Assembly: GCA_016867265.1 (NCBI GenBank)
Contig: VGJW01000022.1
Span: 1 to 41,100, forward strand
DNA length: 41,100 nt
Direction of reading: 5' to 3'
Source: Candidatus Tanganyikabacteria bacterium
GTDB taxonomy: Bacteria > Cyanobacteriota > Sericytochromatia > S15B-MN24 > VGJW01
Positions within the stretch are counted from its first letter, which is position 1. Every line of letters begins with the position of its first letter. The position numbers and the translations under genes are program-made. This document shows positions 2,134 through 41,100 of the stretch, in pieces. Under the pieces are notes generated by a model, which did not search any database, had not been told where the DNA came from, and saw only the letters and a list, made by a program, of their open reading frames with translations.

Positions 2134-2891
2134 AGGTGCGGGCCTTTCACGGAGGCTTGTCGGGCATCCTGGCCAGTGGGCTCGTCGCGATGCCTGCCGG
2201 AACCGACTGGGTCTCGGGGTCGATGGGTGCCGACCTGGTGCAGTTGGCCTCGCCGACGCCCTGCGGGACCCGGGCGCATGCCAGCCCCGTCGCTGTCCAG
2301 ACGCCCGTGCTTGGTCTTGTCCCGTCAGGGACAGGGGTCGAGATCTCGTGGCAATGGCTCGAGGGGCCGGCGCGCGTTCCTGTCGAAGTCGCCAGTTGGG
2401 ATTTTCCCTTGGCGGGTGCCGTAACCACGCTGGTCCTCCCCCTGGTGGGGCTGGTGCCGGATCGTTTCTACCAGATGCGTCTTCGCCGCAGGGTTCAAGG
2501 GGTACCTGGCGCATGGCTCGAAGTCGGGGATTCCGGCAGGGGGTGGCTGTCCCGCCCCGAGCGCGCCGTCGTGCTGCCGGCGGCGGCGGCCACGCCTGGA
2601 CTGCCCGACGTGTCGTGGCCGGTCAACATCCAGCCCGCCGCCGAGGGGGTGCTGCTCGAGGGTCGTCTGGAAAGGCTGGATGATGCAGGTGTGACCTTCA
2701 CGTCCGTGGCAACGGCCAGTTGGCGCCTAAGGGGGCCCGCACAGCCCGTCACGGCCCGTGGCCTGCGCAGCTGGACCCGTTACCGCCTGTTGCTCCGGGA
2801 GGGGGCGCGCGTCGCGACGCTCGATATCCGGACTCGTGGCCAAGGGGAGCCTGCCCTGTCCACGCCCACGGCTTTGGTCTGGCCTCCTTGA
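2130..2891 (+). CDS. Secreted protein of unknown function, coupled to the preceding gene
   Basis: A 253-residue protein starting at GTG 2130, which overlaps the upstream stop by 4 bp. The first ~24 residues are hydrophobic and end in MPAGTD, like a signal peptide. The body has two stretches resembling fibronectin-III-type strands: ISWQWLEGPARVPVEVASWD followed by LVGLVPDRFYQMRLRRR, and later TSVATASWRLRGP followed by LRSWTRYRLLLREGARVATL. Each contains the L-x-x-x-Tyr-x-x-x-Leu spacing common in such folds. The previous gene product (FRGLRPRTTYRVRAYAYR) has the same pattern, so the two may be related. No enzyme motif is visible and the function is unknown. Confidence 0.72.
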   Translation: MKVRAFHGGLSGILASGLVAMPAGTDWVSGSMGADLVQLASPTPCGTRAHASPVAVQTPVLGLVPSGTGVEISWQWLEGPARVPVEVASWDFPLAGAVTTLVLPLVGLVPDRFYQMRLRRRVQGVPGAWLEVGDSGRGWLSRPERAVVLPAAAATPGLPDVSWPVNIQPAAEGVLLEGRLERLDDAGVTFTSVATASWRLRGPAQPVTARGLRSWTRYRLLLREGARVATLDIRTRGQGEPALSTPTALVWPP

Positions 2892-2915
2892 TGGACGGCC
2901 ATGCCGGGCTATCAT
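2888..2915 (+). promoter_or_regulatory. Promoter of clpS
   Basis: A TTGATG -35 (2888-2893), a 16-nt spacer and a TATCAT -10 (2910-2915). Transcription would begin near 2922, giving a leader of about 25 nt that carries the CGAGGT ribosome-binding site before ATG 2947. An ATG at 2914 falls inside the -10 box and is unlikely to be the start. Confidence 0.55.
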
Positions 2916-2946
2916 GGACGTGTCCTTGGTCCACGAGGTATCCGCC

Positions 2947-3228
2947 ATGCCTGCCGCACCCGAAGTTCAGCCTCGCCCGGCCATCGCCCACTATCCGCGT
3001 ACCCGCGTTCTGTTGCATGACGATGACGTGCACGAGATGAACGAAGTCGTGCGTTACTTGCTCGAGGCGGTGCCGCATCTTGGCAGGAACCGCTGTGTGG
3101 CCGTGATGCTCGAGGCGCATCGTGCGGGTCGAGCTGTCGTCGTCGAGGCGCCTTTCGAGCATGCCGAAGGTTACGCCGAGCGTCTTCAACTGCGTGGGCT
3201 GACCGCGACGCTCGAGCCTGCCACCTGA
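2947..3228 (+). CDS. clpS: ATP-dependent Clp protease adaptor ClpS
   Basis: A 93-residue protein matching the ClpS core. VLLHDDDVHEMNEVVRYLL corresponds to the family's LLNDD-x-T-x-M-x-F-V-x-x-x-L region. It is followed by the Met/His helix (VMLEAHRAGRAVV) and a C-terminal E-x-A-E-x-Y helix. ClpS delivers N-degron substrates to a ClpA or ClpC unfoldase. Neither is in the window; only clpP and clpX are, 14 kb away. The usual Asn-Asp pair is His-Asp here (HDDD). The acidic residues that bind the N-degron amino group are kept, but specificity could be altered. The gene is probably monocistronic, with a hairpin downstream. Confidence 0.88.
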   Translation: MPAAPEVQPRPAIAHYPRTRVLLHDDDVHEMNEVVRYLLEAVPHLGRNRCVAVMLEAHRAGRAVVVEAPFEHAEGYAERLQLRGLTATLEPAT

Positions 3229-3283
3229 CGCGAGTACGGGGACCCTGGTGCCCCGGGGCGAGTCTCTGAAGCCCGGAGACGTA

Positions 3284-3311
3284 ACAGGGGGAACCAGTCG
3301 GTTCCCCCTGT
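3284..3311 (+). terminator. Hairpin between clpS and tRNA-Ser (likely bidirectional terminator)
   Basis: A perfect 12-bp stem (ACAGGGGGAACC and GGTTCCCCCTGT) around the loop AGTC. It sits 55 nt after the clpS stop and 5 nt beyond the 3' end of the oppositely oriented tRNA. There is no U-tract on either strand, so termination is inferred from position and stem strength. A smaller GTCTC/GAGAC hairpin lies just to its left (3262-3280). Confidence 0.6.
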
Positions 3312-3315
3312 CGAG

Positions 3316-3406
<91 letters not shown>

Positions 3407-3462
3407 AGCGGCTAAGGCAGTCTAGCAGATGGGTGCCGACTGCCTCAAGCCATCCGGGTTTC

Positions 3463-4209
3463 CTAGCCTGCCCAGCCCGTCTGGTAACGCATGAATGCGG
3501 GCAGCATGCGACGCCAGGTGGGCCAGTCATGGGGCATGTCGTGTCCCCACATCTCCAGATTGTGCCAGATGCCCTTCGACCAGAGGATATCGGAGATTTC
3601 CTTGCTCTGGTGGGGAGCTTCGTAGGAGCCTTGGCCCGTCAGGATGTGGATGCCCTTGCCGCGGTAGCGGAGCATCTCCAGATAACCGTGGTCATTCAAG
3701 TTGGGCATGTAGTGGCGAGGCGAGTTCATGTAGATGAGTTCATCCATGTAGCCGCCGGTCCAAGGAGACAGGTCGTAGGCGCCGCTCATGGCCACGGTGC
3801 CGCCGAAGACCTGCGGATGGCGAAGCAGGAAGTTGAGGGCATGGTATGCCCCCATGCTTGCGCCCGTCGTGAAGATGCCGTCGCGGTTCCCCTGGTTCAG
3901 CCAGATGAAGGGCACGACCTCCTGCATGACGTACTGGTCATAAGCCTCGTGGCGACGCGCCCGCTCGCTGGAGTGGATCCGACTGTTCATCCAGGTCCAG
4001 CTGTTGACGCTGTCGATCGAGTAGCACTTAACGAGCCCCTTCTCGATCCATGGCCGAATCATCTCGACCAGGTAGAACCGCTCGTACTCCTCGAAGTCCG
4101 CTGCGGCGGTCGGGAACATCAGCAGGGGAAAGCCGTAGTGGCCGTAGACCTTGACCGGCATGTCGCGGCCGATGCGGTGGCTGTACCAGCTGGTCTTGAA
4201 CACATTCAT
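3463..4209 (-). CDS. Alpha/beta-hydrolase, putative esterase
   Basis: A 248-residue protein of the putative esterase (esterase-D/antigen 85-like) family. The nucleophile elbow is GASMG with Ser118, and a C-terminal HDMPHDW (His223 or His227) supplies the catalytic His. The segments SWYSHRIGRDMPVKVYGHYG and MFPTAAADFEEYE form the usual core strand and oxyanion region. No signal peptide is visible, so it is probably cytoplasmic. The natural substrate is unknown; relatives cleave acyl or carbohydrate esters. It is the last gene of a four-gene operon, and its ATG overlaps the ribD stop (ATGA). Confidence 0.85.
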   Translation of the reverse strand: MNVFKTSWYSHRIGRDMPVKVYGHYGFPLLMFPTAAADFEEYERFYLVEMIRPWIEKGLVKCYSIDSVNSWTWMNSRIHSSERARRHEAYDQYVMQEVVPFIWLNQGNRDGIFTTGASMGAYHALNFLLRHPQVFGGTVAMSGAYDLSPWTGGYMDELIYMNSPRHYMPNLNDHGYLEMLRYRGKGIHILTGQGSYEAPHQSKEISDILWSKGIWHNLEMWGHDMPHDWPTWRRMLPAFMRYQTGWAG

Positions 4210-24898: not shown

Positions 24899-27800
24899 TC
24901 AGTCTAGCACGGGCACGGGACGGGCCACGGCCTCGAGCAGGCGCTCGCAGGCCAGCAGATGCTCGTCCGGAACCGAGCCCTTCCTGTCCAGGACCAGCTC
25001 GTCGGCCTGCCATTGCCAGTGGGCAAGCGCGGGGACCTGCATCTGGATGTCCGACCAGAGCGGGCGAGGCATGGCCAGGGCGACGCGGACCTTGCCTTTC
25101 TCGGCCTTGATGGACGGGATGCGCAGCTCTGTGGCGCGCAGCTTCAGGCCCACCAATTTGAGAAGGTTGCGGACAGGGGCCGTGGGCACGCCGAAGCGGT
25201 CGCGCCACTCTTCCGTCAGGAGTTCCAGTTCCCGCACGGACCCGACCTGAGCAAGTCGCCGGTACTGCATCATCTTGTCGTCCGGGTCCTCGAACCAGTC
25301 GTCGGGCAGCATGGCCGATACCTGCAAGTCCACGACGGTTTCGACCTGCGCGGCGATCGGATCGCCCAGGCCTTCGGCGATGGCCTCCTCGAGCAGTTGC
25401 ATGTACGTGTCGTAGCCGACTGTCATCATCTGGCCGTGCTGTTCCGCGCCCAGGATGTTGCCGACACCCCGGATCTCCATGTCCCTGAGCGCGATCTGGT
25501 AACCCGAACCCAGTGCCGTATGCTGGACCATCGCGACGAGGCGATCCCTGCCCTCCTCAGTCAGGTCCTGGCGATCGCCGTGATACAGGTAGCAGTATGC
25601 CTTCTGGTCACTGCGCCCCACGCGGCCACGCAGTTGGTAGAGCTGCGCCAGCCCCAGACGATCGGCATCCATGATGACGATCGTGTTCGCCCGGGGAATG
25701 TCGAGGCCCGACTCGATGATGGTCGTGGCGATGAGGATGTCGAACTCATGCGCGACGAACGACAGCATGCTTTCCTCGAGATCGTTCTCCGGCATCTGGC
25801 CGTGCGCCGTCCGCACCCGGGCAGTGGGAACCAGTTCGACGATGCGGGCGGCCAGGGACTCGAGTTGGTCGATGCGGTTCTGGAGGACGAACACCTGGCC
25901 GCCACGCTCCAGTTCGCGCAGGATGGCCTGCCTCGCCTGTTCGGGCTCCCACGGTCCCGCCATGGTCTTGACCGGCAGGCGGTTGGCCGGGGGTGTGGTG
26001 ATGAGGCTCATGTCCCGTGCGCCCGACAAGGCGAGGTAGAGCGTTCGCGGTATGGGCGTGGCGGACATCGAAAGCACGTCCACCTGAGTCTTGATGGCTT
26101 TCAGGCGTTCCTTGTGGCTGACGCCGAAGCGGTGCTCCTCGTCGACGACGAGAAGTCCCAGGTCCTTGAACTGCACGTCCTTCGACAACAGGCGATGCGT
26201 GCCCACGATGATGTCGACCTCGCCCAAGGCCAGTTGCCGGAGTGTCTCCTTCTGCTGGGCCGCCGATCGGAAGCGGGACAAGGGTGCGACCCTGACCGGG
26301 TAGGGGGCGAAGCGCTCCCGGAAGACCTGGTAGTGCTGGTGGGCCAGCAATGTCGTGGGGGCGAGGATCGCCACCTGCTTCCCGCCGACGGCCGCCTTGA
26401 AGGCCGCGCGGATGGCGACTTCGGTCTTGCCGAAGCCCACGTCCCCGCAAATCAGGCGATCCATCGGCCGGGCGACTTCCATGTCGGCCTTGGTCTCCTC
26501 GATGGCTCTCAGTTGGTCGACGGTCTCGGTGTAGGCAAAGGCATCCTCGAGTTCCCTCTGCCACGCCGAGTCGGCGCCGAAGGCGTGACCGGGCAGGGCA
26601 GCCCGTCGCGCGTGAATCTGGAGCAGGTCCTCGGCAACGGCCTTTACCGCTTTCCGAACGCGATTGCGGACATTTTCCCACTCGGCCCCTCCCATCTTCG
26701 AGAGGCGGGGCGAACCGTCGCCGGCGCCCCTGTAGCGGTGGATAAGGCCCGTCTGGTCGACGGGGATGTAGAGGCGGTCGTCCCCTTGATAGAGGACCAG
26801 CAGGAACTCCTTGGCCTGGCCGTCCATGACGATGCGGTGCAGCCCCTGATAGCGGCCGATGCCATGCTTGGCGTGGACCACGAGGTCGCCGGGCCGTAGT
26901 TGTTCGAGGCTGGTGATGGGGGTACCGGCCTGCTTGGGCCGAGCCTTGGCCTTGCCTGCGCTCGTCTTGCGCCAGCCGAAGATCTCGTGGTCGGAATAGA
27001 CGGCCAGCTTCAGCTCGGGCCACTCGAAGCCGGATCCGAGACCCTCGCGGAAGATCCAGACGCCCCCGTAGGCTGCACCCCCCGGCCCCGGCAGGCGGGC
27101 GCCGTAGGTGCTGTGGCAGCCGTGTTCCTCGAGCAACGCGAAGACGCGCTGGGGCTGGTTCGAGGCGATGACCACCCGCTCCCCGGCTCGCGACCGGGCA
27201 ATGAGCCTGCGGGCCAGCTCGTCATAGTGATTGGGAAAGCCTTGGACTTGCGGCGCCCACCAGAACAAGTCGTCCTCGGGCTCCTCAGGCTGCATGTCGA
27301 TCCGGCGGAATCGCGCGACCTCTGCCTCGATATCGCGCAGGGAGGCCAAGGGCTCGGTGGGTGGCGTGACCAGGAGGCCGGCCTTGCGCTTGCGATCCCG
27401 TTCGGCTTCCTCTTGGGCGAGGTAAGTGGCCAGGCGGTCTTCACCTTCCACGGGCAGCCACCTCAAGAGCGTGGCGTCCTCGGGCAGGTGATCGAGCAGG
27501 GTGCCCGTCTCGTGGCAGAAGGACGCGTAGACCTCGTCACCGTCGCCGGGTTGGAAGGCTCCGAGGCGTTCGAGGTGTTCTCGGACCAGCGCCTTCAGGC
27601 GGTCGGCCTCGGCCCGGTGGCCCCAGCCGCGAAGCTGCGCGGCTTGCTGGTCGGCAGCTTGCTGGATGGCCGTCGCCGTCTCGGCCCAGGTATCCACGGG
27701 CAGCAACAATTCGCGAACCGGCCAGACCGCCAGGGTGTCCAGTTGGCCTTCCGATCTCTGCGAAAGCGGGTCGAACCCCCGGATCGACTCGATGTTCTCG

Positions 27801-28369
27801 CCGAACCACTCGATGCGGACAGGTTGGTCTGTGCCCGGGGGCCAAACGTCCAGCAACCCGCCACGGCGGGCAAAGGTGCCCTTGGTCGTGACGGCGGCCT
27901 CCGGCCGGAAGCCGAGGCGAACCAGGTGGCTTGCAAGTTCTGCAGGTACGTGGACGTCGCCGACACGAAGCGTCAGCCGGCTCTCGCGAAGCACACCGGG
28001 CGCGGGCATCCGGTGAGCCAGCGCAGCCATCGTGGTCACGAGCCCGTCGACTTCGCCCGCGGCCAGCGCGGCCAATGCGGTGAAGCGCCGAAGCGAGCTC
28101 TCCTGTTCGGGTGAGACGCCGTGATGGACGGACAGCTCGCCACCGGGAAAGGGCAAGGCCCGGCAGCCGTACGCCGGCAGATCGAGCAAGGCCTGACGCA
28201 GGGTGTCCGGGTCCGGCACGACCAGCACCCACGGCCGCCGGATCGTGGACGCCAGGAACACGCCTGCCCCGAGGGACATGCCCTGAAGGACGTGGTGGCC
28301 CAGGCCCTCGAGCGCTGCGTGGCCCGGGCTTCCCGAGAGGTACGGCCTGAGCGGATCGAGGGCACCCAT
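24899..28369 (-). CDS. mfd: Transcription-repair coupling factor Mfd
   Basis: A 1156-residue superfamily 2 translocase that releases stalled RNA polymerase and recruits UvrA. The N-terminus carries a UvrB-like module; the RNA-polymerase interaction region LRPGDLVVHAKHGIGRYQG precedes the helicase motifs GDVGFGKTEVA (Walker A), DEEHRFGVSHKE (motif II), SATPIPRTL (III), TTIIESGLDIPRANT, and QLRGRVGRSDQKAY (VI). The C-terminus ends in the TRCF domain. Length is normal for Mfd. It is divergent from the rsbV-like gene. Confidence 0.97.
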   Translation of the reverse strand: MGALDPLRPYLSGSPGHAALEGLGHHVLQGMSLGAGVFLASTIRRPWVLVVPDPDTLRQALLDLPAYGCRALPFPGGELSVHHGVSPEQESSLRRFTALAALAAGEVDGLVTTMAALAHRMPAPGVLRESRLTLRVGDVHVPAELASHLVRLGFRPEAAVTTKGTFARRGGLLDVWPPGTDQPVRIEWFGENIESIRGFDPLSQRSEGQLDTLAVWPVRELLLPVDTWAETATAIQQAADQQAAQLRGWGHRAEADRLKALVREHLERLGAFQPGDGDEVYASFCHETGTLLDHLPEDATLLRWLPVEGEDRLATYLAQEEAERDRKRKAGLLVTPPTEPLASLRDIEAEVARFRRIDMQPEEPEDDLFWWAPQVQGFPNHYDELARRLIARSRAGERVVIASNQPQRVFALLEEHGCHSTYGARLPGPGGAAYGGVWIFREGLGSGFEWPELKLAVYSDHEIFGWRKTSAGKAKARPKQAGTPITSLEQLRPGDLVVHAKHGIGRYQGLHRIVMDGQAKEFLLVLYQGDDRLYIPVDQTGLIHRYRGAGDGSPRLSKMGGAEWENVRNRVRKAVKAVAEDLLQIHARRAALPGHAFGADSAWQRELEDAFAYTETVDQLRAIEETKADMEVARPMDRLICGDVGFGKTEVAIRAAFKAAVGGKQVAILAPTTLLAHQHYQVFRERFAPYPVRVAPLSRFRSAAQQKETLRQLALGEVDIIVGTHRLLSKDVQFKDLGLLVVDEEHRFGVSHKERLKAIKTQVDVLSMSATPIPRTLYLALSGARDMSLITTPPANRLPVKTMAGPWEPEQARQAILRELERGGQVFVLQNRIDQLESLAARIVELVPTARVRTAHGQMPENDLEESMLSFVAHEFDILIATTIIESGLDIPRANTIVIMDADRLGLAQLYQLRGRVGRSDQKAYCYLYHGDRQDLTEEGRDRLVAMVQHTALGSGYQIALRDMEIRGVGNILGAEQHGQMMTVGYDTYMQLLEEAIAEGLGDPIAAQVETVVDLQVSAMLPDDWFEDPDDKMMQYRRLAQVGSVRELELLTEEWRDRFGVPTAPVRNLLKLVGLKLRATELRIPSIKAEKGKVRVALAMPRPLWSDIQMQVPALAHWQWQADELVLDRKGSVPDEHLLACERLLEAVARPVPVLD

Positions 28370-32667: not shown

Positions 32668-33324
32668 ATGATGCGCGGCATCCGGACCTTCCCCGGTTTC
32701 GTGGCCTCGGGCCTCGTCCTGTTGGCCTCTTGTACAACCTTGGCGCCGGCTGCCCCGAATGAGGCTGCGGGGCCGTCGGCAGCCGAACGGGCGGCCACGG
32801 CTTCCGTCGCCCCGCCCGCGATCGGTTCGCCTGTTGCGGCATTACCAACGCCATCCTCGGTGCCGACGCCTGCGCCGACGCCCGCTGCCCGCACCGGACT
32901 GCATGATGCCATCGGGCTCACAGGGCACCAAGCCCCCTTCCCGCCTGCCTTCATCCAGGCGCTGTGGTTGGTCGATGAGCGCGGGCTTGTCCAGCATCTT
33001 CCTTCCGGAACGGGGGCCACGCCTTATCTCATCGGTGTCTGTCGTGGAACCGAGCTGCGGCTGTCACCGCCCCTGCATCGGGTGACGCCTGCGCCGCCGG
33101 TTGATGCGTCGTCGTCGGCGACGGCCAGCGAGGATCCGCACGGCTGGCACATGACGACGGGTGACAGCCTGCAGCGAGAGGTCTGGGATCTGGCCTGGGT
33201 GACGCTGTCGGGCGAGGGTTGGTGGGAAGGGACCCGCAGCCTTTCCTTCCGCGCCCCTGATGATCCGGGCCGCGAGGTCGCGACGGCCTCGAGCACGGTC
33301 CGCATTTTGGTGCGCCCGATCTAG
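32668..33324 (+). CDS. Lipoprotein of unknown function
   Basis: A 218-residue lipoprotein. The signal sequence ends in the lipobox LLASC, giving Cys at about residue 22. It is followed by an Ala/Pro/Ser/Thr-rich linker to about residue 74. The C-terminal ~140 residues form a possible beta-rich domain (FIQALWLVDERGLVQHLPSG, VWDLAWVTLSGEGWWEGTRS) with no recognised family. The mature protein is probably anchored in a membrane with the domain held off by the linker. Its 3' end overlaps the convergent nuclease gene by 4 bp. Confidence 0.75.
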   Translation: MMRGIRTFPGFVASGLVLLASCTTLAPAAPNEAAGPSAAERAATASVAPPAIGSPVAALPTPSSVPTPAPTPAARTGLHDAIGLTGHQAPFPPAFIQALWLVDERGLVQHLPSGTGATPYLIGVCRGTELRLSPPLHRVTPAPPVDASSSATASEDPHGWHMTTGDSLQREVWDLAWVTLSGEGWWEGTRSLSFRAPDDPGREVATASSTVRILVRPI

Positions 33325-34397
33325 CCGGGCTTGCCTTCGGTGGGGACGAGGCGCGTCATCGCCTCGAGCACGCGTCGCCCCATCTCATTTTCCTCGAGAC
33401 GTCCCCGAAGCACCACAACGTCCTTGCCCGGCCTGCCCAAGTATCGGGCGACAAGGCCCATTTCGCGGATGGCGGCGCTCGTCTGCGCGGCGCCGGGCGG
33501 CGGCGTTGCGGCCATACGCCCGATGAAGGCGTGCGCCTCCACCCAGCCTTCCGTCGACGCCGGCACGGTCTCGCCGCCAGCCAGCCGGCCCATCCTCACG
33601 ATGACGACGCGGATGCCCGCCGCGTGGGGGGAGAGCACGACCGCATCGACCGGAGCCAGGCGGGCCCAGCCCGAAAGGCGCGACAGGGCCGAGAGTCCGT
33701 CCCGAAGCCTTGCGGCGGTCTCGAATTGCAGGCGGTCGGCCGCACCGTGCATCTGTTCCTCAAGGGCCGTCACCACCGTTGCGGCATCCCCCTCGAGGAC
33801 GCGGACCAAGGTCGCGATGGCCTCAGGATAGGCCGGTTGTCCTGCGCTGATGCACGGCGCCATGCAGCGCCCCAATTCATGGTGGAGGCAGGGTGCCGGG
33901 CCGAGGGGGTCGCAAAGGCGCCACCGCAGCAGGCGCTGCAGGGCTGCGAGGGCGTCATGCAGGGCGGCCTCAGACAGGTAAGGTCCGAAGTAGCGGCTAC
34001 CGTCCGGAACCAGGCGACGCACCACCTGGACCATCGGCCATGGGTCGGACGTGATGCGGACGTAGGCAAAGTGCCGATCCGTCTTGCCCATGATGTTGAA
34101 TCGGGGCAGCGCGGCGGAGATGGTCCGGGCTTCGAGGACCAGGGCCTCGAGCTCGCTACCGGTCTCCGTGTGGGTGACGTGGTGGGCGATGCGGCGAAGC
34201 TTCCGCGTGGGACGCGAATGGCCGCCGTCCTTGCCCATGTAGCTGCGTACCCTTTGGCGCAGGTCCTTGGCCTTGCCGACGTAAAGCAGGCGCCCGTCGG
34301 CGTCGCGGAACGAATAGATTCCGGGGCCGGACGGCAGGGCCGCGATCTGGTCCTCGAGTTGCGCCGGGGGGCGCTTGCGCTTGCCGCGTGGAGACAC
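33321..34397 (-). CDS. Short UvrC/Cho-like GIY-YIG nuclease
   Basis: A 358-residue protein like the N-terminal part of UvrC. GPGIYSFRDADGRLLYVGKA (from residue ~23) is the GIY-YIG nuclease, with Arg and downstream residues (DLRQRVRSYM). A Cys-rich linker (CDPLGPAPCLHHELGRCMAPC) and a UVR-like UvrB-binding helix (FETAARLRDGLSALSRL) follow. It ends before the RNase-H-fold endonuclease and helix-hairpin-helix modules of full UvrC, so only the 3'-side incision activity would be expected, as with Cho. GTG 34397 is chosen because TATGCT lies 6 nt before it. The longer frame to 34760 crosses the neighbouring gene. Confidence 0.8.
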   Translation of the reverse strand: MSPRGKRKRPPAQLEDQIAALPSGPGIYSFRDADGRLLYVGKAKDLRQRVRSYMGKDGGHSRPTRKLRRIAHHVTHTETGSELEALVLEARTISAALPRFNIMGKTDRHFAYVRITSDPWPMVQVVRRLVPDGSRYFGPYLSEAALHDALAALQRLLRWRLCDPLGPAPCLHHELGRCMAPCISAGQPAYPEAIATLVRVLEGDAATVVTALEEQMHGAADRLQFETAARLRDGLSALSRLSGWARLAPVDAVVLSPHAAGIRVVIVRMGRLAGGETVPASTEGWVEAHAFIGRMAATPPPGAAQTSAAIREMGLVARYLGRPGKDVVVLRGRLEENEMGRRVLEAMTRLVPTEGKPG

Positions 34398-34403
34398 GCT
34401 GTC

Positions 34404-34409
34404 AGCATA
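34404..34409 (-). promoter_or_regulatory. -10 box of the UvrC/Cho-like gene
   Basis: On minus, TATGCT followed by exactly 6 nt and GTG 34397. This argues for a leaderless transcript and for this start codon. Confidence 0.5.
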
Positions 34410-34496
34410 GCCTCTTGTGGCCGCGGGTGGGGCACCCTTGGTGCTGTTGGCGAGGTGGGTGAGTTGGTCCAGATGGCGACCGAGAAACTTCCGAAA

Positions 34497-34525
34497 TTGA
34501 CCGCATTTGAATTGTGCCCTAGGCT
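34497..34525 (+). promoter_or_regulatory. Promoter of the DGR target operon
   Basis: A TTGACC -35 (34497-34502), a 17-nt spacer and a TAGGCT -10 (34520-34525). The ATG at 34535 lies 9 nt after the -10, so the leader is at most a few nt. It is the best complete -35/-10 pair in this part of the window. Confidence 0.65.
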
Positions 34526-34534
34526 GCCTTCCAA

Positions 34535-35134
34535 ATGATCGACTCTGCTCGTCGCGCCTTGGTGCTCGGTTTGGGCCTTGCATCCGTTCTGGGTACGGGC
34601 TGTGCGGCCTTGGTGGCTGCAATGAGTCTGCCTTCACCCGCTCCTGTGCCGACGGCGACGCAGCCGCCCCCTGTGCCAGGACCAACGACTGGCAGCACCC
34701 CGTTGAGCCCTTCGCCGATGCCAGCGTTGTTCCCGACGTCCACACCGGGGCCGACGGCAACAGCCGGGCCGGGGATCAAGCCGTCGCCGTCGCAGGGGCC
34801 CGGGGGCACGCCCACGTCCTCGCCCCTCGCCACGGCGCAGCCAGCGGCAACCCCCTCGGTAATCCCCTCCCCTGACCCAACGCCGGTACCATCTGCTGAG
34901 CCTGTTGCCTCGCCCGTCCCCGATACCCAGGATCTGCGCGGAGTCGTGCGGGTGGGTGGGCTGCCCCGCGCAGGGGCGCTTCTGCAATTGTCGGGCGAGG
35001 GCTTCGTCACGCGGCAGGCGGTGAGCGGCAGCGATGGCAGCTACCGATTCACGGACGTTCCGCCCGGCAGCTATGTTCTGGTCGTCAAGGTGGATGGTGC
35101 GGTGACCGAGACGCTTGTCGTGAACGTGAAGTAG
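34535..35134 (+). CDS. Lipoprotein with Pro/Ser/Thr-rich stalk and a carboxypeptidase-regulatory-like domain
   Basis: A 199-residue lipoprotein. The lipobox LGTGC gives a lipidated Cys at about residue 23. Residues ~30-130 are almost entirely Pro, Ser, Thr, Ala and Gly, an extended stalk. The C-terminal ~70 residues (LRGVVRVGGLPRAGALLQLS with SGSDGSYRFTDVPPGSYVLV) match a CarboxypepD_reg-type beta sandwich, a fold repeated in the next gene's product. It starts the operon that ends with the DGR target and is separated from it by 13 nt. It may be an accessory surface protein or stalk partner for the target; that is inference. Confidence 0.8.
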   Translation: MIDSARRALVLGLGLASVLGTGCAALVAAMSLPSPAPVPTATQPPPVPGPTTGSTPLSPSPMPALFPTSTPGPTATAGPGIKPSPSQGPGGTPTSSPLATAQPAATPSVIPSPDPTPVPSAEPVASPVPDTQDLRGVVRVGGLPRAGALLQLSGEGFVTRQAVSGSDGSYRFTDVPPGSYVLVVKVDGAVTETLVVNVK

Positions 35135-35147
35135 GAAGGACATTCCC

Positions 35148-37658
35148 TTGAATTATTCGATCCGTGTGTTGTGGGCGGTGGGTGCCGCGTCGGGCCTGCT
35201 GGCATGCAGCGTACCGGTGGCGGGTCCTGGGGCAGGCCCTGCGGTGTCCGTGTCGCAAGGGGGCGACATCCGGCAGGCGGAGGCGACCAAGGGGCGCTTG
35301 ACAGGCAACGTCAGCATGCGTGGCGTGGGCGCGGCTGCCGGCCTCGAGGTCAAGGTCTACGCCGCCGAGTCCGGACCGCAGATGCCGCACTGGACGACGG
35401 TGACGGACGGGGCAGGACGCTTTGAGGTCAGTGTCCCGGCGGGAAGCTACAACGTGCTCGTGCGCAAGCCCGGCAGCAACCTGGCTGCGGCGCGCTTCGG
35501 GGTGCAGGCGGACACGGTGGTCGATATTGACCTGGTGCCGACTGGGACGGTGACGGGCAAGGTTCGCCTCATGCCCGCTGGCCAGGCCATAGGAACGGAT
35601 GTCTTCGTACCCGGTACGGGGCTGTCGGCGAAGGCAGGTTTCGACGGGACGTTCACGCTTGCGGACGTGCCCGTCGGGACGTATCGCCTGGTGGCGGTTC
35701 GACCAGGGTTTGGCCTCGTCGAATCGGCGGCCGTCGAGGTCGGGCCCTCGGGGAGTCGGCAGGTCCCCGAACTGGTGCTGGCCTCCACCCGTGACCTGCG
35801 GACCCTGACGGGCCAGGTGGCCTTGACGGGTGCGGTCCGGAAGACGGCGGCTCAGGAATTGCCGGGATGTTGGCAGGTGCCGACGACAGAGACCGCGCGG
35901 TCTCCTGAGGGTGTCCTTGTGACGGTCTTCAATGCCGATGGAGAGACGGCTACGGCCTCCACGGCGGTGGATGGCAGCTACCGTATCGAGAATTTCCCGG
36001 CGGGCCTCTTGACCTACCACTTCGAGAAGCCAGGCTACTACGACCAGTGGTGGGCCACGAGCGTGGCTCCCTTCAATCCATACCCATACGGTCCGGGCCA
36101 GCAAGTCTTCAGTCCAAATAATCCCTTGGCCTTACGTGACCTTCTCATCGACCCCGTGGCCTATCCCTTGGGCCTCGGCCAGACCTACAGCTTGACGACG
36201 GGTTATGCCAACCCCCAGATGGGTGCGCAGCGCGATCCAAGTCTGTTCACTTGGACCACTTCCGCTCCCGGCGTCGTGACGGTCGACAAGGGATTGTTGT
36301 CAGCGGTGGGTACGGGAACTGCCGAGGTGTCGGTGGTCGACCCCGAGGATACCAGCCGGAAGGCTACGGTTAGCGTGACGGTGCAACCCTTCCGTGAGGA
36401 TAGCGTGACCGGGCAGTTGGACCTGACGGGAATCAGTAACCCCGGTGACCTGCGCCTCGGGTGGGAGGGCTTGACCTCAGGTAACGGCCTCGTCCCATCC
36501 GCCTCGGGCCTGGTGCAGAAGGAAGGCCTGTGCGCAGGGGATTACCGCCTGACTTGGCAACGCCCCTCGGGGGGCGCCTCGACCCTCCTACAATCGTATC
36601 GCTCGGCGTTGCTCAAGGTGCCGCATGGTCCAGGTGCGGATCCCCAAGCCACCATGAACCTGACCTGGGACTGGCTGCCGGCCGGGGTAGCCACCGACGC
36701 CATCGAGGTGGTGTCCGGAGCTGCGTTCAGCGTGAGCTTCAAGCCGTATCCCGGAGCGACCCGCTATATGCTGGACCTGCTGGATGTGAACGGGCAGCTG
36801 CTGTCGAGCGTGGTGGGGACGGCGTCGCCGTTGGTGGCGACCGCACCGGCTTTCGGGAACTTCAAGTACAGGTTGAAGATGGCGCAGGGAACCTCAGAAG
36901 GATTCTCGGGGGAGACGGCTGGCAGCCCACTGCTTGTTTTGCGGGCTCCCCAGTTCGCTTCGATCGAACCCGGAACTTTCGTGATGGGCGAAGCAGGTCG
37001 GACGAATGCCACCCAATCCGTGACGCTGACCCGTGGCTTCTTCATGCAGAAGACCCACGTGACGCAGGCGCTGTGGCAGGCGCTGATGGGCAATAACCCG
37101 TCCGGTTTCCGAGGGTGTGCCGAGTGTCCCGTCGAGCAAGTGAGTTGGTTTGATGCCATCGGCTTTGCCAATGCCATGTCGCGCCTGAAGGGCCTGCCCG
37201 AGGTCTACAACGCCGACGGTTCCCTCAAGTCGGGCAGCGATATCTACGCGACCACGGGTTATCGCCTGCCGACGGAAGCTGAGTGGGAGTATGCCTACCG
37301 GGCTGGTACGACGACGGCTTGGTACAACGGCGACGATGAAAGCAAGGTCGAGGACATCGCCTGGTTCGGTGGCAACAGCGACTACCTCACCCAGCCCGTG
37401 GGACAGAAGCAGCCCAATGCCTTTGGCCTGTTTGATATGTCAGGCAACGTGTGGCAGTGGACGAACGACTGGTATGACAACTACCCGGGCGGTGCGTTGA
37501 CGGATCCTGCAGGTCCACAGTCGGGCTCGAGCCGGGTGCGCCGCGGTGGGTCGTGTTACAACGACGCGTCCGCTACGCGTGCGGCGATCCGCGGCAACGA
37601 CTCCCCCGGCGACCGCGTCAGCGCCATCGGCTTCCGCCTTGCCAGGTCGAGGCCGTAG
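35148..37658 (+). CDS. DGR target protein: surface lipoprotein ending in an FGE-sulfatase/C-type-lectin-fold domain
   Basis: An 836-residue lipoprotein (lipobox LLAC, Cys20). In order: CarboxypepD_reg-like beta sandwiches (about 50-120, 132-205, 215-310; note DGAGRFEVSVPAGSYNVLV), a bacterial Ig-like Big_2 domain (about 345-422, FTWTTSAPGVVTVDKG) and a fibronectin-III-like region (about 520-600). From about 603 comes an FGE-sulfatase domain (IEPGTFVMGEAG, VEQVSWFDAIGFANAMS, YRLPTEAEWEYAYRAGT, GLFDMSGNVWQWTNDWYD). The last ~42 residues, from RGGSC to GFRLA, are the variable region, matching the downstream template at the amino-acid and base level. Such domains display a ligand-binding surface and usually lack FGE enzyme activity. 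TTG start, GGAAGGA 7 nt upstream. Confidence 0.92.
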   Translation: MNYSIRVLWAVGAASGLLACSVPVAGPGAGPAVSVSQGGDIRQAEATKGRLTGNVSMRGVGAAAGLEVKVYAAESGPQMPHWTTVTDGAGRFEVSVPAGSYNVLVRKPGSNLAAARFGVQADTVVDIDLVPTGTVTGKVRLMPAGQAIGTDVFVPGTGLSAKAGFDGTFTLADVPVGTYRLVAVRPGFGLVESAAVEVGPSGSRQVPELVLASTRDLRTLTGQVALTGAVRKTAAQELPGCWQVPTTETARSPEGVLVTVFNADGETATASTAVDGSYRIENFPAGLLTYHFEKPGYYDQWWATSVAPFNPYPYGPGQQVFSPNNPLALRDLLIDPVAYPLGLGQTYSLTTGYANPQMGAQRDPSLFTWTTSAPGVVTVDKGLLSAVGTGTAEVSVVDPEDTSRKATVSVTVQPFREDSVTGQLDLTGISNPGDLRLGWEGLTSGNGLVPSASGLVQKEGLCAGDYRLTWQRPSGGASTLLQSYRSALLKVPHGPGADPQATMNLTWDWLPAGVATDAIEVVSGAAFSVSFKPYPGATRYMLDLLDVNGQLLSSVVGTASPLVATAPAFGNFKYRLKMAQGTSEGFSGETAGSPLLVLRAPQFASIEPGTFVMGEAGRTNATQSVTLTRGFFMQKTHVTQALWQALMGNNPSGFRGCAECPVEQVSWFDAIGFANAMSRLKGLPEVYNADGSLKSGSDIYATTGYRLPTEAEWEYAYRAGTTTAWYNGDDESKVEDIAWFGGNSDYLTQPVGQKQPNAFGLFDMSGNVWQWTNDWYDNYPGGALTDPAGPQSGSSRVRRGGSCYNDASATRAAIRGNDSPGDRVSAIGFRLARSRP
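37523..37645 (+). repeat. DGR variable region (VR)
   Basis: The last coding stretch of the target gene, aligning without gaps to the template repeat at +2266. Of the 29 template adenines in the aligned core (template 39797-39892) 18 differ here (10 to G, 4 to C, 4 to T); of 67 other bases only 10 differ. The 3' end, CATCGGCTTCCGCCT (37625-37639), is identical to the template and is the likely initiation-of-mutagenic-homing site; the next base differs (T for G). Confidence 0.92.
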
Positions 37659-37704
37659 GCCGAGGGCTGTCCCTTGACGCTTGAACCCTTGTTCTCTTGG
37701 CGAA

Positions 37705-37761
37705 GCGCGCGTGGCCCGGTCCCGGAGCCGTGCTTGCCGGCCCGGGCCGGGGCACGCGCGC
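37705..37761 (+). terminator. Long hairpin between the VR and the HRDC gene
   Basis: The outer arms GCGCGCGTG (37705-37713) and CACGCGCGC (37753-37761) pair perfectly, and an inner GCCCGG pairs with CCGGGC, leaving a 4-nt bulge. It starts 46 nt after the target stop codon. It could terminate the target operon or act as a DNA/RNA structure near the homing site, as stem-loops downstream of the VR do in some DGRs. There is no U-tract. Confidence 0.5.
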
Positions 37762-37804
37762 GGAATTGCAGAGCGGTCGTGGTCGTGGTGCTGCAGGTCA
37801 TGCC

Positions 37805-38338
37805 GTGAAGGTCCGGGTGTTCACCTTGCCGTGGCAGCACGACGGGTCGGGCTTTCAGGATGAGGCGGTGGTGGCTTTTCTCGCCGACCACGATGCGGTC
37901 GACGTTGCCCAGCATTTCTTCATGCACGAGAAGACCCCGGTGCTGGTGTTGGTCGTGAGCTATCGGGAGGCCATTTCGGCGGTACCTCGATTCGGGCGGA
38001 CGCACGGAAGGCCTACTGCCGAGGACGTGGCGGTCGACCTTGATCCGGACGAACGGCGGCGCTTCGAGGCGCTGCGGACGTGGCGCAACCAGTTTGCCCG
38101 ACGGACGGGCAAGCCACCCTATGTGGTCTTTACCAACCGACAGGCGTCGGCCTTGGCCCGGCGTAATCCAGATTCGCTGTCGGGCTTGGGCGAGATCGAA
38201 GGCATGGGGCCCTCGCGCATCGAGGACTTTGGTCAGGAATTGCTCGAGGTCCTGTGCGCCCTGACTCGGCCTGCGGGTGATGGGGGTGGCGGACCTGCCG
38301 GGACGGCGGCGCCTGTCGTTGTCGGGGCGGAAGCTTGA
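37805..38338 (+). CDS. DGR accessory protein with C-terminal HRDC domain
   Basis: A 177-residue protein. The N-terminal ~60 residues (MKVRVFTLPWQHDGSGF with FFMHEKTPVLVLVVSY) resemble the conserved start of DGR-associated HRDC proteins. Residues ~80-152 (DERRRFEALRTWRNQFARR, PPYVVFTNRQASALARR, GLGEIEGMGPSRIEDFG) are a typical nucleic-acid-binding HRDC helical domain. A Gly/Ala-rich tail follows. HRDC genes are known DGR accessory genes; the precise role is unknown, possibly binding template RNA or target DNA. GTG 37805 is chosen from the conserved N-terminus with CAGGT upstream. Its stop overlaps the avd TTG start (TTGA). Confidence 0.85.
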   Translation: MKVRVFTLPWQHDGSGFQDEAVVAFLADHDAVDVAQHFFMHEKTPVLVLVVSYREAISAVPRFGRTHGRPTAEDVAVDLDPDERRRFEALRTWRNQFARRTGKPPYVVFTNRQASALARRNPDSLSGLGEIEGMGPSRIEDFGQELLEVLCALTRPAGDGGGGPAGTAAPVVVGAEA

Positions 38339-38724
38339 CCAGCTTGGACGAACCCGTCCTCGTGGCTCGGTGGCAGCAGATGGTCGGCGATCTGCTCGAT
38401 CGGACGGCCCGGTTCCCCAAGGTCGTGCGATTCACCTTTGCCGCCCGCATCGACAATCTGGCGCTGGATGTTCTCGAGGAGTTGGTCGAGGCCCGATATG
38501 CCTCGGGCGCAGGCAAGCAGGCGGCCTTACGCCGGGCCGACGGCCGTCTGGCCAGGCTGCGCGTGCTGTTGCGGCTGGCACATGACCGGCGTTATCTCGA
38601 CCACCGGGGCTACGAGCATGTGTCTCGCGGCCTTGACGAGGCGGGTCGGATGCTGGGCGGGTGGCGCAAGGACCGGCTGGATACGGTGATGTCTGCCGGG
38701 TTTGCCGACGATGCGGCCCGCTGA
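38335..38724 (+). CDS. avd: DGR accessory variability determinant Avd
   Basis: A 129-residue, basic, all-helical protein of the Avd four-helix-bundle family, which forms a pentamer that binds the reverse transcriptase and template RNA. Diagnostic segments are RFPKVVRFTFAARIDNLALD, LRRADGRLARLRVLLRLAHD and the near-invariant GRMLGGWRKDRLD. Start TTG 38335 overlaps the HRDC stop by 4 bp. Its 3' end overlaps the RT gene by 14 bp, so translation of all three is coupled. Avd is essential for mutagenic retrohoming in studied DGRs. Confidence 0.94.
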   Translation: MTSLDEPVLVARWQQMVGDLLDRTARFPKVVRFTFAARIDNLALDVLEELVEARYASGAGKQAALRRADGRLARLRVLLRLAHDRRYLDHRGYEHVSRGLDEAGRMLGGWRKDRLDTVMSAGFADDAAR

Positions 38725-39754
38725 AGCCACCTTTGCACAGGTGGCTTCGTTTCCTGCACTGGTGACTGCAGCCCGCAGGGCTGCGCGCACGCACATGCGC
38801 TCGCCCGAGGTCGCCGGCTTCATGCTGGAGCTGGAACCCGAGGTGCTTCGACTCGAGCGCGAACTGCTTGGCGGGACTTACCTTCCCCAACCCTATCGCA
38901 CATTCTTCATTCGCGAGCCCAAGCCTCGCACCATCTCGGCCGCGGCGTTCCGGGACCGCGTCGTGCATCACTCACTTTGTGCCGCCATCGAGCCGGTCCT
39001 CGAGGTCGTGGCCGTGTCCAGCAGCTTCGCGTGCCGCAGGGGCGGTGGCGTGCTGGCTGCCCTTGGGTACGTGCGGCAGATGGTACGGCGGCATCCCTAC
39101 GTACTCAAGCTGGATATTCATCACTTCGTCGAGTCACTGGATCATGGTGTTTTGAAGCACCTCCTGGCTCGGCGCATCGGCGACCCCGGCCTGCGTGAGC
39201 TGTTGGCATTGTTCATTGACCTCGGTGCTCCTGGCTCTCCACCGGGTCGAGGCCTGCCCATCGGCAACCTGACCAGCCAGCATTTTGCCAATTTCTACCT
39301 GGGACCTCTGGACAGGTTGTTCATCAAGGGACTCGGGATTCCGGGCCACGCGCGTTATATGGATGACATCCTGGTCTTCGGGGACAGCCACGAGGTGCTC
39401 TGGAACGCCTGCCACGAGGCCGATCGCTTCGTGCAGGATCGCCTCGGCCTTGTCCTGAAGCCTGAGGTGACCCGGGTCCTGCCAGTCACCACAGGTGTGC
39501 CTTTCCTTGGGTTCGTCGTGTTTCCGGGCCTGGTGCGCATGGACCCTGCCCGCGTCAGGCGATGGCGGCGCAAGATGGGATCGTTGAACCGGGGCGTGGC
39601 GCTCGGCCATCTCTTCGAGGACCAGGCCCAGCTAAGCGCCGACAGCCTGTTGGGTTGGGCGGCCCACGGCGACACGTATGCGATGCGCCGCTCGTGGGCG
39701 CGTCGACGGGGTGGGCCGGGCCGTCAGTTGAGTGGCGTTGACCATCCCGGCTGA
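38711..39754 (+). CDS. DGR reverse transcriptase
   Basis: A 347-residue RT. Fingers/palm blocks are [19 protein letters not shown] (71-89), [25 protein letters not shown] (133-145, first catalytic Asp135), [17 protein letters not shown] (181-197, the DGR-type block 4 with SQ in place of the usual QG/SP) and YMDD (216-219, catalytic Asp pair), then [11 protein letters not shown] in block 7. The Ile-Gly-Asn-Leu-Thr-Ser-Gln run is diagnostic of DGR RTs, which are error-prone at adenines. ATG 38711 is likely; an in-frame TTG lies 9 nt upstream. It overlaps avd and is followed 34 nt later by the template repeat. Confidence 0.96.
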
Positions 39755-39788
39755 TCTGCCGGATGATGCTGGCGGCGAGGGGACCAAG

Positions 39789-39911
39789 GGGCTCGAACCG
39801 GGTCATCCGGGGTGGGTCGTGGAACAGCGACGCGTCGAACACGCGGGCGGCGAACCGCAACAACAACAACCCGGATAACCGCAACAACAACATCGGCTTC
39901 CGCCTGGCCAG
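39789..39911 (+). repeat. DGR template region (TR), non-coding
   Basis: An adenine-rich template read in the frame of the VR as [20 protein letters not shown], then runs of AAC (Asn) codons, ending NIGFRLAS. The concentration of AAC codons is typical because substitution at the first two positions reaches many amino acids. The repeat is followed by a small hairpin, CGGACC-CACG-GGTCCG (39922-39937). It is not preceded by a ribosome-binding site, and any frame through it is not considered a gene. In the 391-bp gap 39755-40145 nothing else is recognised beyond the TR and this hairpin. Confidence 0.94.
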
Positions 39912-40145
39912 CCCAGGGAACCCGGACCCACGGGTCCGCGGGGTCAGACTTTCCAGGGGTACGCCCCTCGAGACCGCACCGTGTCCCTGACCATCGTCCC
40001 CGAGCCTGTGTCCGGCCATGTCCGGACCGAAGACCCAAGGTCTCTTCCCGGCGATGCGGGCCACGGCCATGCTCCGGGAAGGGCAGGGGCCTGCTTGCCA
40101 AGCGCCACCCTTGCGCACCATCCCCTGCTCCGCCACGATGGGGTC

Positions 40146-41100
40146 ATGGCGTCCCGCAAGCAACTGCCTATCGGCATTCAGACCTTCCGCGAGATTCGCG
40201 AGGAAGGGCACTACTACGTCGACAAGACGGGGTTTGCCGTTGATCTCGTGCGAACGGGCAAGACTTTTTTCCTGTCCCGCCCGCGTCGCTTCGGGAAGAG
40301 CCTGTTCCTCGACACGCTCAAGGAGCTCTTCGAGGGCAGCCGGGACCTGTTCACGGGCCTTGCGGCCGAGGACCGCTGGGACTGGTCGGTGAAGCATCCG
40401 GTGATCCGCCTGGACCTGGGTCTGGCGGCATCAGATTCGCTGGACCAACTTGAACGCAGCGTGCTTCGACAGATTCGGGCTTCGGCAGGTTTCCTGGGAG
40501 TTCCAGCTTCCCAGGAGTACGTGGCCGAAGCCTTGGCCGAGGTCATCGAAAACCTTCATCGCCACACGGGCCAGCGCGTGGTGGTGTTGGTCGACGAGTA
40601 CGACAAGCCTATCCTCGACAACTTGGCCCAGCCTGATCTGGCACGTCAGATGCGTGATGCCTTGCGCAGTCTGTACGGTGTCCTGAAAGCCTTGGACGCC
40701 CACCTGAAGTTCGTCTTCCTGACGGGCGTCAGCAAGTTCAGCAAGGTAAGCCTCTTCTCCGGCCTGAACCAACTCGAGGATCTGACGCTCGAGCCACGCT
40801 GGTCGGCCCTGTGCGGCTACACCCAGAATGACCTCGAGGCGGTATTTGCCCCCGAACTGGACGGGGTGGATCTCGAGACAGTGCGACGCTGGTACAACGG
40901 CTACAACTGGGGCGGGGAAGCCGTCTACAACCCCTTTGACGTGATGCTTTACCTCAAGCATCGGCAGTTCCGGCCCTACTGGTTCGAGACGGGCACCCCG
41001 ACTTTTCTTGTCGAACTGTTGGCCCGGCGGGGGTTCTTCACGCCCCGCCTCGAACGCCTGCGAACCGACCAGGACTTCCTCTCGGCCTTTGATGTCGACC
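40146..41100 (+). CDS. AAA-ATPase-like protein of the PD-(D/E)xK-associated type (partial, runs off the window)
   Basis: An open frame of at least 318 residues with no stop before the end. It begins MASRKQLPIGIQTFREIREE then YYVDKTG. The Walker A-like motif is SRPRRFGKSLFLDTL, the Walker B region is VVVLVDEYDKPILD, and the body continues FLTGVSKFSKVSLFSGLNQLEDLT. This is the AAA-ATPase_like family (DUF1703-linked), in which the ATPase is followed by a PD-(D/E)xK nuclease domain, missing here because of the truncation. The role is uncertain; such genes are often in accessory or mobile regions. It follows the DGR by 234 bp on the same strand, but a functional link is not shown. Confidence 0.85.
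   Translation, partial: MASRKQLPIGIQTFREIREEGHYYVDKTGFAVDLVRTGKTFFLSRPRRFGKSLFLDTLKELFEGSRDLFTGLAAEDRWDWSVKHPVIRLDLGLAASDSLDQLERSVLRQIRASAGFLGVPASQEYVAEALAEVIENLHRHTGQRVVVLVDEYDKPILDNLAQPDLARQMRDALRSLYGVLKALDAHLKFVFLTGVSKFSKVSLFSGLNQLEDLTLEPRWSALCGYTQNDLEAVFAPELDGVDLETVRRWYNGYNWGGEAVYNPFDVMLYLKHRQFRPYWFETGTPTFLVELLARRGFFTPRLERLRTDQDFLSAFDVD

Follow-up and report, generated by a model that had tools for sequence, protein, structure and literature searches.

The locus described here carries all parts of a diversity-generating retroelement (DGR) in a row, which raises the question of whether its template repeat (TR) is also the one that wrote the variable region (VR) of the target gene beside it. 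The window, i.e., the whole stretch of DNA analyzed, is the entire contig C22 (41,100 bp) of a 2.85 Mb assembly in 41 contigs, 98.2% complete. The cassette, hereafter cassette A, spans positions 35148–39911 on the forward strand in the order target–HRDC–Avd–RT–TR.

Organization of cassette A

Every part reported in the preliminary description, namely a reverse transcriptase (RT), an Avd, an HRDC protein, an adenine-rich TR, a VR and a target gene, was recovered on one strand, at the same positions and in the same order. The target gene (35148–37658) encodes an 836-aa lipoprotein with the N-terminus MNYSIRVLWAVGAASGLLAC, a lipobox-like LLAC motif, carboxypeptidase-regulatory-like repeats and a C-terminal FGE/C-type-lectin domain, in agreement with the earlier assignment. 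Pfam matches were obtained to FGE-sulfatase PF03781 (E 5e-45) and PF13620 (1e-19), and the best solved structure was the Treponema variable protein TvpA (PDB 2y3c, E 4e-38), to whose C-terminus the VR (37523–37645) aligns. The product is accordingly a predicted C-type-lectin-fold variable protein with its VR at the 3' end of the gene. Paralogues of both window lipoproteins (a proline-rich carboxypeptidase-regulatory protein and the N-terminal part of the target) occur on contig C40 (4,011 bp), where they adjoin a lipoprotein gene in its own right, whose 607-aa product has an FGE-like tail; this arrangement suggests that two modules were fused to form the window target.

Downstream lie the HRDC-domain accessory protein (37697–38338; PF00570, 3e-18) and Avd (38335–38724), the latter matching bAvd PF22296 (9e-17) and DivGenRetAVD NF033474 (2e-27, 95 bits against a cut-off of 80). 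The RT gene (38702–39754) encodes a protein with a YMDD motif and with SQ in motif 4 (IGNLTSQ), where group II-type RTs have QG; it matches RVT_1 PF00078 (1e-12) and phrog_1423 (1e-87). Its best solved structure is a DGR RT (8ub7, E 8e-43), the runner-up being a group II RT (6e-15). In the RT tree, it fell inside the DGR clade together with BPP-1 Brt and further DGR RTs (support 100/100), apart from the QG-type group II intron RTs. The DGR-type assignment of the RT thus stands, and the locus is confirmed as a genuine DGR.

A UvrC/GIY-YIG-type nuclease gene is encoded on the reverse strand just upstream of the DGR (33321–34760), with Mfd farther away (24899–28369). The proximity of these DNA-repair genes is probably a coincidence.

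Template and variable region within the window

TR_A (39789–39911) aligns with the window VR over 123 bp without a gap. The VR is changed at 18 of 31 adenines and at 11 of the 91–92 other positions (Fisher p 1e-6), and this concentration of mismatches at adenines is not due to chance. The reading frames of cassette A are open, and TR_A obeys the codon-position rule, its adenines occupying codon positions 1 and 2 only (0 at position 3), such that no stop codon can arise. TR_A itself looks intact.

The same script was run on ten other DGR loci from phages, plasmids, relatives of the same class and phylum, and one Planctomycetia MAG. Neighbouring TR/VR pairs showed 0–3 non-adenine mismatches in these loci and 4 in BPP-1, as against 11 of 91 in cassette A; here, the neighbouring TR does not fit the neighbouring VR at non-adenine sites. 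Judged by these alignments, 11 such mismatches are too many for a functioning TR/VR pair.

A second cassette and four variable regions

A second cassette, B, is encoded on contig C37 and comprises HRDC, Avd, RT and TR_B in the same order as in cassette A, with protein identities of 63% for RT, 72% for Avd and 51% for HRDC. It begins with a homologous leader at the point where C37 ends, inside the HRDC leader, so its upstream neighbour is absent from the assembly; a search for this upstream end with the last 143 bp of C37 found nothing else in the assembly that matched well. Contig C40 was considered as a source of the missing target and rejected, as it holds the upstream-lipoprotein paralogues but yielded no TR-like VR. 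On the 3' side of TR_B, an ORF judged from its translation to be an IS3-like transposase (2667–3749) represents a possible vehicle for cassette spread. C37 and the window have the same G+C content (0.66), and they lie 0.145 apart in tetranucleotide composition, just above the distances of equal-size window pieces (0.091–0.136), an excess that the transposase may explain. Short as C37 is, the presence of TR_B in this genome is demanded independently by C14, C20 and C22.

Besides the window VR, three further VRs were found in the genome, one each on C12, C20 and C14. Compared with TR_B, the window VR is changed at 18 of 32 adenines and only 2 of 90 other positions (p 5e-11), and the log-likelihood (ln) prefers TR_B over TR_A by 44. 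The C12 VR behaves in the opposite way, with changes at 16 of 31 adenines and 3 of 91 other positions relative to TR_A (p 5e-9) and 11 of 90 non-adenine changes relative to TR_B. Both the window VR with TR_B and the C12 VR with TR_A therefore form near-repeats whose mismatches lie at TR adenines. The VRs of C20 and C14 each differ from TR_A at 10 of 91 and from TR_B at 1 of 90 non-adenine positions. A further 24-bp candidate, C38:198–221, was discarded as chance-level (E 0.008; 0.16 in another search).

The two templates differ, with a non-adenine base in both, at seven positions (15, 21, 48, 57, 84, 87 and 117). At all seven, the base is that of TR_B in the VRs of the window, C20 and C14, and that of TR_A in the C12 VR. 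At positions 48, 57 and 84, TR_A agrees with the TR of a relative from the same family (G001) and TR_B differs; the window VR therefore has the derived bases specific to TR_B and does not preserve a former state of TR_A. The VR had earlier been attributed to the TR at 39789–39911; its non-adenine bases are instead those of the template on the other contig, and TR_B is therefore the expected template for read mapping of the window VR.

Likeness in adenine-site changes among the three TR_B-type VRs was no greater than in permuted data (p 0.2–0.96), so each of these VRs goes back to a mutagenic event of its own, and none was copied from another. The host genes on C12, C14 and C20 are siblings, the downstream flank of C12 being, from 24 bp past the VR, 84–94% like those of C14 and C20. 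The window gene is an outlier, only 64–68% identical upstream to the sibling targets, yet has TR_B in common with two of them. With siblings matching different templates and an outlier matching TR_B, template use is decoupled from both gene lineage and neighbourhood.

TR_A fits only one VR, on C12 (6801–7950). The FGE gene that contains it is interrupted by several in-frame stops and changes of frame, and this decayed gene still carries its DGR-written tail. With its only matching VR in a broken gene, the activity of TR_A may be past. TR_A may still be writing a dead gene, its last target may have decayed, or a living target may be unassembled. Another frameshifted FGE gene, a probable fossil target, is found on C30 (2500–3520) and ends in a degenerate VR-like tail, RVVRGGSWNNDAIFARLPYRNDPLEPDMRDRFVGFRLA.

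Flanking elements and a candidate spacer RNA

All four VRs are followed, directly past the homology, by the block GTCGAGGCC(G/A)TAGGCCGAGGGC; in the window it occupies positions 37646–37667 (GTCGAGGCCGTAGGCCGAGGGC). The block is 92–100% identical across the four loci, and beyond it the window gene falls to 45–68%. The VRs of G001 likewise continue with AGGTCGAG, whereas all three templates (TR_A, TR_B and the G001 TR) continue with AGCCC(A/G)GGG in its place. The distinction between IMH and IMH* is known from BPP-1 (PMC3240598), and the post-VR block has the distribution that a recognition element confined to recipients would show, making it a putative IMH-like element. The region after the VR, viewed for hairpin or cruciform potential from the sequence alone, contains this conserved 22-bp block and short inverted repeats. 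Together with the VR end, the block forms a 43-bp stretch that is identical or nearly so in three loci. The HRDC leader is homologous among cassettes A, B and that of G001; in the window, it includes a long inverted repeat (37705–37761) with 21-nt arms, 86% complementary.

The segment immediately 3' of TR_A (39914–40029) is conserved with the flanks downstream of TR_B and of the G001 TR. In a shared fold, 94% of cells are paired and 18 of 39 pairs show two-sided changes, a value reached in none of 500 shuffles and far lower in slid controls; the test comprises only three sequences, from which the fold was itself derived. In BPP-1, a structured spacer RNA downstream of the TR recruits the RT–Avd complex (PMC12875486), and by analogy we regard 39914–40029 as a probable DGR spacer RNA. 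An Rfam search of 34000–41100 gave no match. Directly 3' of the template RNA, a predicted AAA-ATPase-like gene (PF09820; 39981–41099) is cut by the contig end.

Proposed crossing of templates and alternative explanations

The two cassettes, the four VRs, their template fingerprints and the independence of their adenine-site changes are all present in the assembled sequence. Taken together, they argue, with a probability of about 80% in our estimate, for crossed wiring between two paralogous DGRs, in which TR_B wrote the window VR and TR_A wrote the C12 VR. The GC-rich genome, which probably belongs to a small class of Cyanobacteriota, has two paralogous target–HRDC–Avd–RT–TR cassettes, one of them in the window. 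In the proposed scheme, the two template RNAs would feed a common family of FGE/C-type-lectin lipoprotein genes with the same short post-VR block. Adenine-randomized cDNA of TR_B, from C37, would have last overwritten the VRs of the window target, C20 and C14 by mutagenic retrohoming, and TR_A, which adjoins the window target, would have last written the VR of the now broken C12 paralogue. We infer retrohoming in trans as the mode of transfer, together with the RT responsible, surface display and present activity. The preliminary picture of a complete DGR acting on its target consequently holds for the parts but not for a self-contained unit, the window being one locus of a set with two cassettes and four VRs.

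A self-contained DGR, in which TR_A writes the adjoining VR and the extra mismatches reflect drift since the last homing, would fit the position of TR_A next to the VR and the significant adenine bias between them. That bias is also significant because TR_A and TR_B are 92% identical, and the mismatch count is out of line with the control pairs. Moreover, drift would not reproduce the TR_B base at all seven discriminating positions, three of which are specific to TR_B relative to the TR of G001. Drift of TR_A was ruled out as the source of the 11 mismatches by this exact agreement and the outgroup template, and we consider a self-contained unit very improbable. It is unlikely, though less remote, that recombination or gene conversion placed a TR_B-written target or VR tract beside cassette A without any retrohoming in trans. 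The shared VR ends and the homologous pre-HRDC leaders of cassettes A, B and G001 would offer a foothold for such an exchange, and a swap of whole targets between cassettes is a possible variant. Against it, the window VR has no excess of adenine-site changes in common with the other TR_B-type VRs, and the body of the window gene is of a distinct lineage, 64–68% identical to the others.

An assembly join error would mean that the window target belongs before cassette B and that the target of cassette A is unassembled. C37 does break off immediately upstream of HRDC B, at the place where the tail of a target would be expected, and the VR loci have 43 bp in common; this length is nevertheless below the final k-mers usually employed in assembly, and the sequence past it (TGTCCCTTGACG...) is unlike the tails of the other targets. 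We hold a misjoin to be quite unlikely. Even if it were true, TR_A would still be no source of the window VR, and the mixture of templates among C12, C14 and C20 would stand.

Beyond crossed wiring as such, the pattern would accommodate a broader model, which we advance tentatively and at slightly less than even odds. Two complete DGRs in one cell may share a target pool marked by the post-VR block, in which a VR can be rewritten by either template, with no preference for the neighbouring one, and the two supply different fixed frames to the same family, decayed copies included. The genome provides a natural two-template system for separating template choice, RT–template specificity and the target-recognition block. 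A VR is naturally paired with its nearest template (Roux et al.); here, the nearest pair appears to be the wrong one despite an adenine bias of p 1e-6, and the lesson is to check non-adenine fingerprints across the whole genome.

Comparison with relatives and known systems

The relative G001 has a single cassette, and its remote VR fits the TR at 91 of 92 non-adenine positions. A VR-like tail on contig C185 of the same genome (2340–2462) differs from this only TR at 15 of 92 non-adenine positions and is either decayed or written by a template outside the assembly. No close relatives were found among viral contigs, and the search of genome contigs returned only one distant locus, from a Planctomycetia MAG.

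The plasmid pPAES01 of Prosthecochloris aestuarii has the same order of FGE target–HRDC–Avd–RT, with an RT 43% identical to ours; unlike here, its local TR and VR show 0 non-adenine differences, and the local template writes the local target. The DGR of Treponema denticola, with TvpA, resembles cassette A in its lipoprotein target, C-type-lectin/FGE fold and HRDC accessory gene (PMC4891356; PDB 2y3c). Its gene order differs, HRDC lying between TR and RT, and the accessible text of that report describes no second cassette. BPP-1 shares the RT family, the presumed mechanism and adenine mutagenesis between TR and VR, and its structured spacer RNA downstream of the TR (PMC12875486) has a probable counterpart here, but it is a phage with one cassette, a local target and the TR before the RT gene.

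Nostoc PCC 7120 and Trichodesmium are similar in having two DGRs per genome and scattered C-type-lectin targets whose VRs lie close to the 3' end (PMC7517822, PMC8867640). In contrast to this likeness, our RT tree puts phylum relatives and Anabaena pANA02 on a branch separate from RT A. These cyanobacterial studies assign remote targets to the DGR or DGRs of the genome by TR identity above 50%, and the available portions of both papers do not describe a neighbouring VR written by another cassette.

DGRs themselves, HRDC accessories (PMC4891356), remote targets (PMC7517822) and non-adenine-based trans-templating (PMC10907252) are already on record, going by the accessible parts of these publications. 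Within the accessible literature on multi-target and remote-target DGRs, we found no VR that adjoins a complete cassette and is yet written by another, with the local template matched elsewhere. The closest parallel is Thiohalocapsa sp. PB-PSB1, likewise a multi-DGR genome, in which the non-adenine bases of a VR fit the template of another locus, a match read as diversification in trans (PMC10907252). The loci considered to be served in trans there are described, in the text available, as incomplete DGRs or remote targets, whereas here the VR apparently written in trans adjoins a complete cassette. The RT and TR of this cassette look intact, and the TR finds its match elsewhere in the genome.
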